From: Bryobacteraceae bacterium
GTDB taxonomy: Bacteria; Acidobacteriota; Terriglobia; Bryobacterales; Bryobacteraceae
Length of the DNA stretch: 41,622 bases
Direction: 5' to 3'
Assembly (NCBI GenBank): GCA_030041985.1
Contig: JASIAM010000279.1
Coordinates: 1-41,622, forward strand
The notes under the pieces: generated by a model
Database searches by the model: none
What the model saw: the letters and a program-made list of their open reading frames with translations, nothing else
Told to the model about the DNA's origin: nothing
Shown here: one piece after another, positions 2 through 6,459 of the stretch
Numbering within the stretch: position 1 is the first letter of the stretch
Layout: every line of letters begins with the position of its first letter
Made by a program: the position numbers and the translations under genes

Positions 2-208
2 TCCGCGCCGGCCATCAATCTCGATCAATCGCTGTACGCTTCGGCTCCTTTGCCCCAAACCAAGCGGCTCATGCTTAAGGATGAGGACCTCTGCGTCCAT
101 TGCGGCCTGTGCGCGGAACGCTGCCCCACCGCCGCCTGGGATATGCAGAAGTTCGAACTCCAAATTCCATACGCAGGAAGGCCAGTGCTTGCCACAGTCA
201 CTCAGTGA
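2..208 (+). CDS. 4Fe-4S ferredoxin-type C-terminus (5' truncated)
   Basis: Open from the window edge to a TGA at 206-208, giving the last 68 residues of a protein. It holds one 4Fe-4S signature, DLCVHCGLCAERCP (Cys-x2-Cys-x2-Cys-x3-Cys-Pro), so it probably carries or receives electrons at low potential. It overlaps korA by 20 nt (189-208), which points to translational coupling. Clusters of this kind often place a FAD-dependent, GltD-like oxidoreductase with a C-terminal ferredoxin domain in front of korAB, and that is my best guess for the missing part. The enzyme identity cannot be read from this fragment; the ferredoxin domain is certain. Confidence 0.8.
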   Translation, partial: SAPAINLDQSLYASAPLPQTKRLMLKDEDLCVHCGLCAERCPTAAWDMQKFELQIPYAGRPVLATVTQ

Positions 209-2051
209 ACCCGTCGTTTCCACCCCCGCGCGCCCTGCGGTGCGCGTGAACGATTTTGCTTTCAAATTAGCCAACGTCAACGGAACCGGTTCTGCCAGCG
301 CCAATGGCTTGCTTATGCAGGCCATTTTCCGTATGGGCATCCCCGTTTCCGGCAAGAACCTGTTCCCCTCGAACATTCAGGGCTTGCCCACCTGGTACGA
401 GATCCGCGTCAATAAGGACGGCCACACCGCCCGCGCGCTCGATTACGACCTCATGGTAGCCATGAACGGCCAGACCTACGGCCGCGATATCTATGAGGTA
501 CGCGAGGGCGGCTATCTGCTCTACGATTCCACCTGGCCGCTCGACCCCGCTTTGCGCCGCGACGATATCACGACCCTCGGCGTGCCACTGGCCCAAATGT
601 GCAACCAGCACTTCCGCGAGCCGCGTGAGCGCATTCTCATGAAGAATATCGCCTACGCCGGTTCGCTGGTGGCCCTGTTGAACGTCGATATGGACATAGT
701 CGAAACTCTCCTTGACGAAAAATTCGCCGGGAAAAAGGCTCTGCGCGAATCCAACCGGCGCGCGCTGCGGCTCGGCCTCGATTACGCCAAGGAACACTTC
801 GAGCCGCTCCCCTTCCGCCTGGAGCGCATGGACGCCAACCGCGACAAGATTCTCATCGATGGCAACACCGCCACGGCGCTCGGCTGCGTCTACGCCGGCT
901 GCACCGTGGCGGCGTGGTATCCCATTACACCCTCCACTTCGGTAATGGACGCCTTCAAAGACTTCTGCGAGAAGTACCGCCGCGATCCGGAAACCGGCCG
1001 TAACAACTACGCCATTATCCAAGCCGAAGACGAACTGGCGGCCATTGGCATGGTGATCGGCGCTTCCTGGGCTGGCGCGCGTGCCTTCACTTCCACTGCC
1101 GGCCCCGGCATCTCCTTGATGAACGAATTGCTGGGCCTGGCTTATTACACAGAAATCCCGGCCGTGGTCATGGACATCCAGCGAGTCGGCCCCTCCACCG
1201 GCATGCCCACGCGCACCCAGCAGGGCGACTTATTCGAATGCGCCTACGCCTCTCACGGCGACACCAAACATATTCTTCTTTTCCCGGCCAATCCACATGA
1301 GTGTTTCGAATTCGCGGTGAAAGCCTTCGACTTGGCCGAGCGCTTCCAAACGCCCGTGTTTATGATGTCCGACTTGGATATCGGCATGAACGACTGGGTG
1401 GTGCCGCGCCTCACCTGGGATGATTCCTACCGACCCGACCGCGGCCGCGTCTTGAGCCTGGAAGAGATTCAGCAGCTTTCTCACTTCCAGCGCTACAACA
1501 ACGAAGACGAAAATTTTGTGGCCGCGCGCACTCTGCCCGGCGTAGATCCGAAAGCTGCTTACTTCACCCGCGGCTCCGGCCACGCCAAAACGGGAGCCTA
1601 CACCGAGATCCCCGATGAGTACCAGGAAGTGGTGGACCGGCTGGCGCGCAAGCACAAAGCGGCGGCGCAGTTCGTCCCGGCGCCTGTGATTACCCCCAGT
1701 CCCCAGTCCCCGGCCGCTATCGGTCTCATCACTCTCGGCGGCTGCGATCAGGCGGTACGCGAAGCCGCGGCTCTGCTTCCCGAATACGGCGTGTTCGCCG
1801 ACGTGCTGCGTGTGCGGGGGTTCCCATTTGATCCTAGTGTCGAAGCATTCATCGCGGAGCACGAAGTCTCGTTTGTGATCGAGCAGAACCGCGACGGGCA
1901 ACTCCGCTCTTTGCTCATCCTCGAAACCGGGGCGCCTAAAGAAAAGTTGCGGCCGCTCTTGATCTACGGCGGTTTCCCCTTGAGCGCCCGCCACGTCATC
2001 GAAGGAATTACCAGTCAGTTAGGAGAAAACATTCTTGCCTTCCATCACTAA
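189..2051 (+). CDS. korA: 2-oxoacid:ferredoxin oxidoreductase, alpha subunit (gamma-alpha fusion)
   Basis: Catalytic subunit of a CoA-dependent 2-oxoacid:ferredoxin oxidoreductase of the 2-oxoglutarate/pyruvate type, cytoplasmic. About 620 residues. The first ~190 residues are the gamma-type domain (NGTGSASANGLL, then GLPTWYEIRVN). The alpha domain that binds the TPP pyrimidine ring follows, with YPITPSTSVMDAF, TSTAGPGISLMNE and the GPSTGMPTRTQQGD segment, then a C-terminal transketolase-like domain. I chose TTG at 189 because AGGAAGG lies 7 nt upstream and it overlaps the end of the ferredoxin-type gene; the ATG at 81 would add a nonconserved stretch inside that gene. korB starts 17 nt before this gene ends. 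The exact 2-oxoacid cannot be told from sequence. Confidence 0.93.
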   Translation: MPQSLSEPVVSTPARPAVRVNDFAFKLANVNGTGSASANGLLMQAIFRMGIPVSGKNLFPSNIQGLPTWYEIRVNKDGHTARALDYDLMVAMNGQTYGRDIYEVREGGYLLYDSTWPLDPALRRDDITTLGVPLAQMCNQHFREPRERILMKNIAYAGSLVALLNVDMDIVETLLDEKFAGKKALRESNRRALRLGLDYAKEHFEPLPFRLERMDANRDKILIDGNTATALGCVYAGCTVAAWYPITPSTSVMDAFKDFCEKYRRDPETGRNNYAIIQAEDELAAIGMVIGASWAGARAFTSTAGPGISLMNELLGLAYYTEIPAVVMDIQRVGPSTGMPTRTQQGDLFECAYASHGDTKHILLFPANPHECFEFAVKAFDLAERFQTPVFMMSDLDIGMNDWVVPRLTWDDSYRPDRGRVLSLEEIQQLSHFQRYNNEDENFVAARTLPGVDPKAAYFTRGSGHAKTGAYTEIPDEYQEVVDRLARKHKAAAQFVPAPVITPSPQSPAAIGLITLGGCDQAVREAAALLPEYGVFADVLRVRGFPFDPSVEAFIAEHEVSFVIEQNRDGQLRSLLILETGAPKEKLRPLLIYGGFPLSARHVIEGITSQLGENILAFHH

Positions 2052-3090
2052 GCCGGTCGCCGTTCATCCCAGCCTGCGGCGCAACGAGGTCGGGCTAACC
2101 GTTCGCGATTACGAAGGCTCCATGTCCACGCTGTGCGCCGGTTGCGGTCACGATTCCATCACCGCCGCGCTGATTCGCGCCATTTGGGAATTGGCCATTC
2201 CGCCGCACATGATCGCCAAGATCAGCGGTATCGGATGCTCCTCGAAAACACCTACCTATTTCGTCAGTGGCGGGCATGGTTTCAACGCAGCCCATGGCCG
2301 CATGCCGCCAATCGCTACCGGGGCCAATGCCGCCAATCGCGAACTCACCTACATCGGCATTTCCGGTGATGGCGATTCGCTCTCCATCGGCCTCGGACAT
2401 CTGTGCCACGCCATCCGCCGCAATGTGCGCATACTTTATGTGATCGAGAACAACGGTGTCTACGGTTTGACCAAGGGCCAGTTCTCCGCTTCCGCCGATG
2501 TGGGATCCAAAAGCAAACGCAAGGAGCCCAACCACATGGCGCCCATTGATCCGGTGGCGCTGGGCCTGAGCCTTGGTGCAACTTTTATCGCGCGCAGCTT
2601 TTCGGGAGACAAAGACCAGCTTGTTCCCATCCTCAAGGCCGGTATGAAACATAGCGGCTTCGCCTTGGTGGATGTGCTTTCGCCTTGCGTAACCTTTAAC
2701 GATCACGAAGGTTCCACCAAGAGTTATCTGCACGTCCGCCAGCAGGCCCGTGCCGCTACGGAAACTGACTTTGTCGAACCGACCTCGGAAATTCTGGCCA
2801 GCATCGGCACCAACGGCGCAGTGCACGTGACCATGCACGATGGCAGCATCGTGGCCTTCAAGGGTGTCCCACCCGACTACGATCCGCGAGACCGCGAGCG
2901 CGTCTACGCCTATCTGCACGAGCACCAGGCGAAAGGCGAGATCGTAACGGGCTTGCTGTATATTGATGAAACCGCCGCCGATCTGCACGACCTAAGCCAG
3001 ACTCCCGACGAAGCACTCATCAAGTTGCCGTTCGAGAAACTCTGCCCTGGCTCCGCGAAACTGGAGGAGCTACAAGAAGATTTCCGGTAA
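2035..3090 (+). CDS. korB: 2-oxoacid:ferredoxin oxidoreductase, beta (TPP-binding) subunit
   Basis: TPP-binding partner of KorA, 351 residues, the usual length for KorB. Visible signatures are CAGCGHDSI near the N-terminus (a cluster/TPP-associated Cys region), GIGCSSKTP, the diphosphate-Mg loop GDGDSLSIG with ENNGVYGLTKGQ after it, and a later SPCVTFNDHEGSTKSY segment. It starts with TTG preceded by TTAGGAGAAAA, overlapping korA by 17 nt, so the two subunits should be made together. The protein oxidatively decarboxylates a 2-oxoacid and passes electrons through its Fe-S cluster to ferredoxin. The ferredoxin-NADP reductase gene at 21.5 kb could use the same ferredoxin pool (inference). Confidence 0.94.
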   Translation: MPSITKPVAVHPSLRRNEVGLTVRDYEGSMSTLCAGCGHDSITAALIRAIWELAIPPHMIAKISGIGCSSKTPTYFVSGGHGFNAAHGRMPPIATGANAANRELTYIGISGDGDSLSIGLGHLCHAIRRNVRILYVIENNGVYGLTKGQFSASADVGSKSKRKEPNHMAPIDPVALGLSLGATFIARSFSGDKDQLVPILKAGMKHSGFALVDVLSPCVTFNDHEGSTKSYLHVRQQARAATETDFVEPTSEILASIGTNGAVHVTMHDGSIVAFKGVPPDYDPRDRERVYAYLHEHQAKGEIVTGLLYIDETAADLHDLSQTPDEALIKLPFEKLCPGSAKLEELQEDFR

Positions 3091-4614: not shown

Positions 4615-4643
4615 TTGACAGCATATACCGCCTGGGGTATGCT
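4615..4643 (+). promoter_or_regulatory. Promoter with embedded CsoR/RcnR-family operator
   Basis: TTGACA (4615-4620) and TATGCT (4638-4643) are separated by 17 bp, a good sigma-70 type promoter. The spacer contains ATACCGCCTGGGGTAT (4625-4640), an inverted repeat ATACC-N6-GGTAT with a G/C-rich centre. This resembles operators of the CsoR/CstR/RcnR/FrmR family. The regulator gene starts 41 nt downstream, so autorepression by blocking polymerase is the simplest reading (inference). The site is seen directly; binding is not shown. Confidence 0.78.
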
Positions 4644-4980: not shown

Positions 4981-6459
4981 ATGAGGGTGATGAATTTCCG
5001 TCCCGGCAAATCACTGCTCGTCCTCGCTTGCTGCTTGCTGGCCGGCACATATCTTCCAAGTGGCCGGAGCTTTGCGTCTCCCGCAACCGACAGCGTAGCC
5101 AAACGGCTTTATGTAGAACCGTTCCAAACCAAAGAGGACGCGGCAAAACTGCGCGACGATGTAACGGCCGAACTTCGCAAGGTGAGTTCTGTCTCGCTGG
5201 TGGCTGACGCATCCAATGCAGACTTGATCCTGGGCGGCGGAGGAGAGATCTGGATCAGGGGGTACCACAGTTTTAGTCCCCGATCTCATATGAAGTTACC
5301 GACCAATGGCACACCGATTTATGGGGGCTTCTTATCAGTCGAGCTGAAAGATAAACGAGGAGTGACTCTCTGGTCTTACCTGGTGACACCCGGCACAGCA
5401 TCCGGCGATGTTTCGAAGGATCTTTCCAAGCAAATCGCGAAACGTCTTGCCGAGGCGCTGAATCACGTGGAAACACCCACCGCGGTGTCTCCACAGCAGC
5501 AACCCACGGTGTCACTCAGCGCAGCCGGGGCGACGTTTCCTTATCCCGTTTATCAGAAATGGTTCACCAATTTTCAAGTGGATCAGCCGGGCACGCTGAT
5601 CAGCTATGACGCGATGGGCTCGGAAGCGGGCATTCGTAAGCTACTGGCGGGAGGCGCCGATTTCGGAGCCTCGGACAGCCCGGAGGTGATTCATCAACTC
5701 GCTCCTGCCGCAGAAAGCAACTACCTGCTATTTCCTTCTGTGGCCGGGGCGGTGGTTCCTATTGTCAACCTGCCCGGTGTCTCGGAAGATATCGCCTTCA
5801 CGCCAGAAGCGCTGGCGGGCATCTATCTCGGAAAGATCACCAAGTGGAACGACCCCATTCTGGTTCGGACGAATCGTGGTGTGCACCTGCCCGATTTGGA
5901 CATCGTGGTGGTCCATCGTTCCGATGGGAGCGGCACAAGCTGGGCTTGGACGAGTTACTTGTCGAAGACAAGCCCGGAGTGGAAGAGCGCGGGCGGCGCC
6001 AGCATGGATCCTAAGTGGCCAACCGGACGCGGGGCCACCGGGAATGAAGGTGTCGGCAAGCTGGTCAGGGAACTGGGCGGTTCGATTGGTTACGTAGAGT
6101 TTATCTACGCGTTGCAGAATCACCTCACTTACGGCAAGGTACGGAATCAGAATGGCGAATTTGTGGGAGCCAGTCTGGAGAGCATCGCGGCGGCGGTAGA
6201 TCACTATTCGAAGGAGCTTCGTGAGAATGTGCAAGCATCGCTAGTGGATGCGCCTGGAGAAGGCGCGTATCCGATCGCTTCGTTCACCTGGATCGCCGTT
6301 CCGGTCCACATCGCGGATGACAACAAGCGGCATGCGATTGCGGCGTTTCTTCACTGGATGCTCGGCCCCGGCCAGCGCCAGGCCGCTGCGTTGGGCTATC
6401 TCGCACTTCCCAGAGAGATTGTGGCGAAAGAAGAAGAAGCTATCGCCAGGATTCACTGA
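4981..6459 (+). CDS. PstS-like phosphate-binding protein with extra N-terminal domain
   Basis: 492 residues, exported (hydrophobic signal about residues 10-22; a Cys pair inside it could be a nonstandard lipobox). From about residue 175 it is a PstS-type periplasmic binding protein: LSAAGATFPYPVYQKWF, YDAMGSEAGI, DFGASDSP, VVHRSDGSGTSW and GNEGVGKLV are the usual phosphate-contact segments, and GSIGYVEFIYA follows. Residues ~40-165 form a separate domain (RLYVEPFQT ... ADLILGGGGE ... LSVELKDKRGVTLWSY) that ordinary PstS (about 320-350 residues) lacks and that I cannot assign to a family. No pstC, pstA or pstB is nearby, so it may scavenge or sense rather than feed a local transporter. It sits 18 bp after the metal-type regulator. 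Confidence 0.85.
   Translation: MRVMNFRPGKSLLVLACCLLAGTYLPSGRSFASPATDSVAKRLYVEPFQTKEDAAKLRDDVTAELRKVSSVSLVADASNADLILGGGGEIWIRGYHSFSPRSHMKLPTNGTPIYGGFLSVELKDKRGVTLWSYLVTPGTASGDVSKDLSKQIAKRLAEALNHVETPTAVSPQQQPTVSLSAAGATFPYPVYQKWFTNFQVDQPGTLISYDAMGSEAGIRKLLAGGADFGASDSPEVIHQLAPAAESNYLLFPSVAGAVVPIVNLPGVSEDIAFTPEALAGIYLGKITKWNDPILVRTNRGVHLPDLDIVVVHRSDGSGTSWAWTSYLSKTSPEWKSAGGASMDPKWPTGRGATGNEGVGKLVRELGGSIGYVEFIYALQNHLTYGKVRNQNGEFVGASLESIAAAVDHYSKELRENVQASLVDAPGEGAYPIASFTWIAVPVHIADDNKRHAIAAFLHWMLGPGQRQAAALGYLALPREIVAKEEEAIARIH

Follow-up and report, generated by a model that had tools for sequence, protein, structure and literature searches.

A PstS-type phosphate-binding protein joined to an LptE-like domain and encoded near OprB-family porin genes in Bryobacteraceae

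Background

Five described systems come closest to the locus reported here, the OprB-family porins (PF04966) among them. PstS (TIGR00975) belongs to PstSCAB, and LptE (PF04390) is described as the plug of the LptD barrel in the excerpt of the relevant paper (PMC7204523). In Prochlorococcus MIT9312 the Pi-stress porin PhoE and PstS were both more abundant under low phosphate and in Prochlorococcus NATL2A PhoE was not seen, and the excerpt of that report describes no LptE-like domain (PMC3349580). In the formaldehyde sensor FrmR, the residues Pro2, Cys35 and His60 are discussed for formaldehyde sensing, according to the excerpt of PMC5146963. For marine bacteria it has also been argued, in the excerpt of PMC7250820, that the accumulation of phosphate in the periplasm is left unexplained by the PstS-mediated model.

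We analysed a stretch of 41,622 nucleotides from a Bryobacteraceae bacterium (assembly GCA_030041985.1, contig JASIAM010000279.1), called the window below, which carries a gene for a PstS-like protein with an extra N-terminal domain. The protein shares with PstS of PstSCAB a core that is over the equivalog cut-off and the phosphate-contact residues, but unlike ordinary PstS it has an additional LptE-like domain, falls with its relatives in a clade of its own and is not encoded beside pstC. With LptE the extra domain shares a colinear profile match, but unlike the LptE lipoprotein it has no lipobox by eye, it is fused or adjacent to PstS, and most of the genomes searched have a separate LptE. 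The porins encoded near it pass the Pfam cut-off just as other OprB porins (PF04966) do and differ from them in sitting near a phosphate-binding protein. Each part belongs to a known family or resembles one, and what seems to be new is the combination; among the literature matches listed, no title dealt with a fusion of LptE to PstS or with a complex of PstS and OprB. The reading that we favour, tentatively and with slightly less than even confidence, is that the fused protein serves to catch phosphate at the outer membrane, where the LptE-like domain would dock to a barrel and from where phosphate would be handed over to PstCAB.

Results and discussion

The fused gene and its neighbours in the window

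The fused gene lies at positions 4981-6459 on the plus strand and is an intact open reading frame with an ATG start that encodes 492 amino acids, a PstS-like protein fused to an extra periplasmic domain just as the earlier note had described it. Residues 1-32 of the product (4981-5076, plus strand) are a probable signal peptide of Sec type I, which by eye would be cleaved after SFA, and no lipobox was seen by eye in the N-terminus. This is followed by the LptE-like domain (residues ~39-168, 5095-5484, plus strand), placed by a family-profile match at 5095-5484, a short linker, and the PstS core (residues ~177-492, 5509-6456, plus strand), placed by a TIGR00975 match and the phosphate-contact residues. 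Upstream, a gene for a DUF156/FrmR-type regulator (PF02583; 4684-4962, plus strand) stops 18 bases before the fused gene, and a gene for an OprB-family porin (PF04966; 3105-4505, minus strand) is divergent from both. Between the porin and regulator genes is the palindrome ATACCGCCTGGGGTAT (4625-4640, no strand), a probable operator with similar palindromes elsewhere, which is overlapped by a promoter-like site (4615-4643, plus strand) that was found by a consensus scan only and matches at 10 of 12 positions. At 81-3090 of the window a 2-oxoacid:ferredoxin oxidoreductase is encoded, its two parts being two adjacent genes, which is ordinary.

Recurrence of the module in fused and split form

The module, that is, the extra domain together with PstS, is present in all 29 loci studied (the window included), fused in 22 of them and as two neighbouring genes in the other seven, which rules out a one-off or mis-assembled fusion. 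The 29 loci were gathered from matches and are not an even sample. When 237 family genomes were searched with the whole protein, the same fusion turned up in relatives down to 46% identity, and so did split loci; searches of the class and the family with a 15-row profile brought further loci; these profile searches scored at most 10 and at most 17 candidates per genome, respectively, and loci may have been missed. Left outside the 29 are L214-L217 and the phylum-level matches in G324, G247, G321 and G103, with frames of 324-656 aa. In four of the split loci (L146, L147, L149 and L150) the two genes overlap or almost touch, and by eye an apparent signal peptide is found at the start of each gene.

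In a phylogenetic tree the 29 module PstS sequences form one clade (100/100) that is separate from 34 ordinary PstS, the latter being a selection out of many more, and the fused and split states require at least three changes on this tree. The tree and the gene layouts together show that the domain and PstS evolved jointly. Two loci from other families, L200 and L201, are placed inside the part of the PstS tree that belongs to the window's family and this suggests that their module copies were gained by horizontal transfer. One locus that was counted as fused (L204, 4068-5600) has a PstS part that runs on in another frame (5296-5499), and therefore the gene is either broken or mis-assembled there.

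The extra domain is related to LptE

Searches with the window alone leave the domain without a name. With residues 35-175 as the query, Pfam and NCBIfam gave nothing at E<=1 and PDB nothing significant, and neither the window sequence nor the first profile found anything significant for the window's domain in PHROGs, Pfam, NCBIfam or PDB. The earlier note had called the domain unrecognised, but the family profile identifies it as LptE-like. When the profile of the 29 N-terminal domains was aligned by hhalign with that of 20 Acidobacteriota LptE sequences, the result was 97.0% with an E of 9.9e-11 over 117 colinear columns, and ten column shuffles and the reversed profile gave 0.2% or less. The same profile gave 0.5% with CsgG and 5.4% with DUF4136, by which both are ruled out as the identity of the domain; these two were the control families (nine of 11 matches for CsgG; for DUF4136 18 of 24 passed, one was dropped for a stop and 17 were used).

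Matches to single sequences point the same way. Pfam LptE was the only family that matched more than one N-terminal domain (five of 15 at E<=1), and of the 29 domains it matched 12 at E<=0.1 with a best E of 2.3e-06; three other families matched one domain each. In the fusions of G199 and G747 the LptE model scores over its cut-off of 23 within the N-terminal domain (27.2 and 23.5 bits, respectively), in those of G759 and G762 it matches under the cut-off, and the window's domain has no match to it. A separate LptE over the cut-off is present in 20 of 24 genomes searched, G000 included, that of the window's genome being at C27:32908-33312, and no lipobox cysteine is conserved by eye among the module N-termini inspected. 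The profile comparisons make the relationship to LptE well supported, and we call the domain LptE-like and not LptE because the window's copy falls short of the Pfam threshold, shows no lipobox by eye and comes from a genome with an LptE of its own. The domain was found in none of the best 80 PstS relatives listed from genome contigs (tblastn, E<=1e-3; in three of these, L028, L061 and L069, the upstream part is cut off by the contig edge), which rules out a common variable PstS N-terminus and bears out the view that the domain is foreign to the usual PstS.

Two single-sequence structure models were poor (pLDDT 44-45); in these weak models the order of elements is beta-alpha-beta(n)-alpha, as in LptE. 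Foldseek with the first weak model gave no match at E<=0.001, the best being PelC at E 0.17, and among the 50 matches listed PelC chains recur and LptE is absent. Three standalone secreted paralogs of the domain (G000:C199:30113-30583, which is L151, and L152 and L153) gave 97.8% by hhalign with the profile of the N-terminal domains and only 11.5% with LptE. Further standalone proteins of this kind are encoded at L214-L217, with no PstS or OprB in the fetched stretch, and the domain profile has matches in at least 205 of the 237 family genomes, a count that includes the module's own matches and many weak partial ones. A sub-cut-off LptE match at G574:C1:1635445-1635801 (L242) lies in a 603-aa protein that by eye is unlike the fusion, and is perhaps a TolB-like region or due to chance.

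The PstS core and the Pst transporter genes

The PstS core of the window is over the equivalog cut-off (TIGR00975, residues 180-491, 308.7 bits against a cut-off of 205), and in a PDB search solved PstS structures matched residues 177-483, the best being 2z22 with an E of 2.7e-68. All nine phosphate-contact residues of the E. coli PstS contact list are present in the window (T185, F186, S214, D232, R313, D315, S317, G318 and T319). The nine are complete in 22 of the 29 module PstS, the window included, and the other seven have one change each. The best 80 PstS relatives listed from genome contigs are mostly from Acidobacteriota.

The remark of the earlier note that no Pst transporter genes are nearby agrees with the search for pstC (TIGR02138), which has no match on the window, the whole of contig C256. 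The over-cut-off pstC of this genome is at C231:3622-4482, on another contig than the fused gene and beside an ordinary PstS. PstC over the cut-off is present in 27 of the 29 module genomes and never beside the module; the two genomes that have none over the cut-off are 82% and 74% complete, and G420 has two permease matches below the cut-off at a distance of about 9 kb from the module.

Of 40 ordinary pstS genes, 11 (L005, L007, L010, L011, L012, L014, L020, L026, L030, L032 and L043) have an upstream tandem TGTAA(C/T)-N5-TGTAA(C/T), for which shuffles (n=200) gave a mean of 0.015 and a maximum of 1. This tandem is possibly a Pho box of Acidobacteriota, the pattern having been fixed only after viewing a scan with a PhoB consensus. 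With TGTCA(C/T) also allowed, such a tandem is upstream of only two of the 29 module loci (L142 and L147), some others having weaker sites, and there is none within 400 bases upstream of the window's fused gene; the per-locus scores come from 400 bases with approximate gene starts and 100 mononucleotide shuffles, uncorrected for 29 tests. As a phosphate link of the module these sites are suggestive only. A different ligand would be one way to account for their rarity. The PstS part would then be a general anion binder, for example for arsenate or for a phosphorylated compound admitted by OprB, which would agree with the naming of OprB (PF04966) for carbohydrates and with a regulator of the FrmR type, unexpected for phosphate, in the window. 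We consider this distinctly unlikely, since the phosphate-contact residues are kept in the window and in most module loci and the equivalog cut-off for PstS is passed.

The porin neighbourhood

The porin of the window, which the earlier note did not mention, turned out to be the recurring partner. It scores 77 bits with PF04966 against a cut-off of 22.9, and the other module porins scored are also over this cut-off. Of the 29 loci, 20 have an OprB gene nearby (the window, L137-L150, L200, L201 and L211-L213), among them all 18 loci of the window's family and two of 11 beyond it. The recurring pair is OprB together with LptE-like/PstS. When 15 module genomes were searched for OprB, each had one to three matches and the neighbouring porin was among them every time. 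The window's OprB had no tblastn match (E<=1e-3) in the 80 best-listed ordinary PstS loci with flanks of up to 6 kb. Neighbour genes of 26 loci were clustered, on frames picked by length and unannotated, and besides OprB no cluster occurred in more than four; Pfam was run on the neighbour genes of L201-L210.

Module and porin are divergent in 16 loci (the window included), on the same strand in three and convergent in one, and what lies between them is the regulator in the window and L200 and a 322-aa frame in L201. Fifteen of the module porins group in a single clade of the porin tree. The porins of the window, L137, L138 and L200 form a second clade that is nested among OprBs with no module, and that of L201 stands apart on a long branch. 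In the PstS tree, however, the window, L137, L138 and L200 are nested among loci that have the first type of porin. The 17 non-module OprB places include two, L244 and L247, that are missing from the porin tree and one, L243, that like L201 has a very long branch. As the two trees disagree for these four loci, it appears that the porin was replaced by that of another lineage while the neighbourhood stayed.

This bears on whether the porin neighbourhood is merely an inherited gene order with no functional meaning. Such inertia could be read from the fact that 18 of the 20 OprB-bearing loci are from one family and that 15 of their porins are one clade, but it does not predict a porin swap or a varied orientation, and it sits poorly with the absence of a match to the window's OprB around the ordinary PstS genes; we regard it as improbable and give it little weight. 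A weightier alternative comes from the nine fused loci L202-L210, all from other families, whose fetched stretches (5.7 to 14 kb) have no OprB and no common neighbour. LptE binds LPS, and the LptE-like domain may likewise bind LPS or another outer-membrane component and so keep PstS near the outer membrane, with the porin linked functionally and not physically. The LptE-like identity of the domain and these nine loci both speak for such an anchor, and the nine fit it, or docking to another barrel, at least as well as they fit docking to OprB. Against it stands the presence of OprB at every locus of the window's family, where it was kept despite the apparent replacement of the porin and rearrangement, and we hold the anchor to be unlikely, though to be taken seriously.

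The regulator and the palindrome

The window's regulator scores 76.6 bits with PF02583 (cut-off 22.8) and, although it carries the Pro2, Cys35 and His60 of the FrmR formaldehyde sensor, it is under the FrmR equivalog cut-off with 97.6 bits against 133. At position 2, L200 has Ala and L201 has Ser, and therefore formaldehyde sensing is possibly unconserved even there. The earlier note had proposed looking for the regulator-PstS pair in other genomes. A gene of the FrmR type is near only three of the 29 module loci, the window, L200 and L201, so that a conserved pair is ruled out, and elsewhere this regulator pairs with OprB porins. Such a gene is beside a module-free OprB in five of the 17 places fetched (L251, L252, L253, L256 and L258), a recurring regulator-porin pair with no PstS module in the stretch and with a palindrome between the two genes. 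Palindromes like ATACCC-N4-GGGTAT precede the porin gene in six of these 17 places, namely L254 and the five just named, and the window, L200 and L201 have one near the regulator; the pattern has 27 matches over all loci (1.95 Mb, overlapping copies included). L137 and L138 have neither an FrmR-type gene nor the palindrome.

The simplest reading of these data is that the regulator belongs to a porin cassette. In the window, porin, regulator and palindrome have the look of a preassembled cassette that took the place of the usual porin, and the fused gene in the window is therefore probably under the FrmR-type regulator. The earlier note had offered two roles for the fused protein, a sensor or a carrier docking elsewhere, and it is the docking carrier that comes close to our favoured reading. 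A periplasmic phosphate sensor that signals via a partner would be in keeping with the missing pstC gene alongside, but nothing else that we found favours it. A regulator near only three of the 29 loci and the lack of any non-OprB neighbour cluster in more than four of the 26 clustered loci speak against it, and we judge it highly improbable.

A possible route for phosphate at the outer membrane

For the phosphate catcher proposed above, the following sequence of events may be envisaged. The LptE-like domain would probably fix the protein to an outer-membrane beta-barrel, either inside it or at its periplasmic mouth, and in many cases this barrel would be the OprB-family porin encoded nearby. 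PstS would bind phosphate on entry and would then pass it to PstCAB encoded elsewhere in the genome. A more far-reaching version is that a plug of the LptE type carries the binding protein of an ABC system and that the exit of the porin opens onto PstS, so that the two would make up one outer-membrane intake unit in which entry is coupled to high-affinity capture; this we regard as doubtful. The main difficulty for the docking proposal is the nine fused loci with no OprB nearby. Further points against it are the window's N-terminal domain having no Pfam match, the standalone paralogs being unlike LptE, the poor structure models, a fold search with no significant match, the lack of a lipobox by eye, the naming of OprB for sugars and the small number of Pho-box-like tandems.

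Conclusions

The finding bears on how a very dilute nutrient, once through a porin, reaches its binding protein. With a PstS that is built onto an LptE-like domain and encoded near a porin gene, the hand-over from porin to carrier becomes directly testable. If the docking proposal is true, the LptE fold would be employed in these bacteria outside LPS export.
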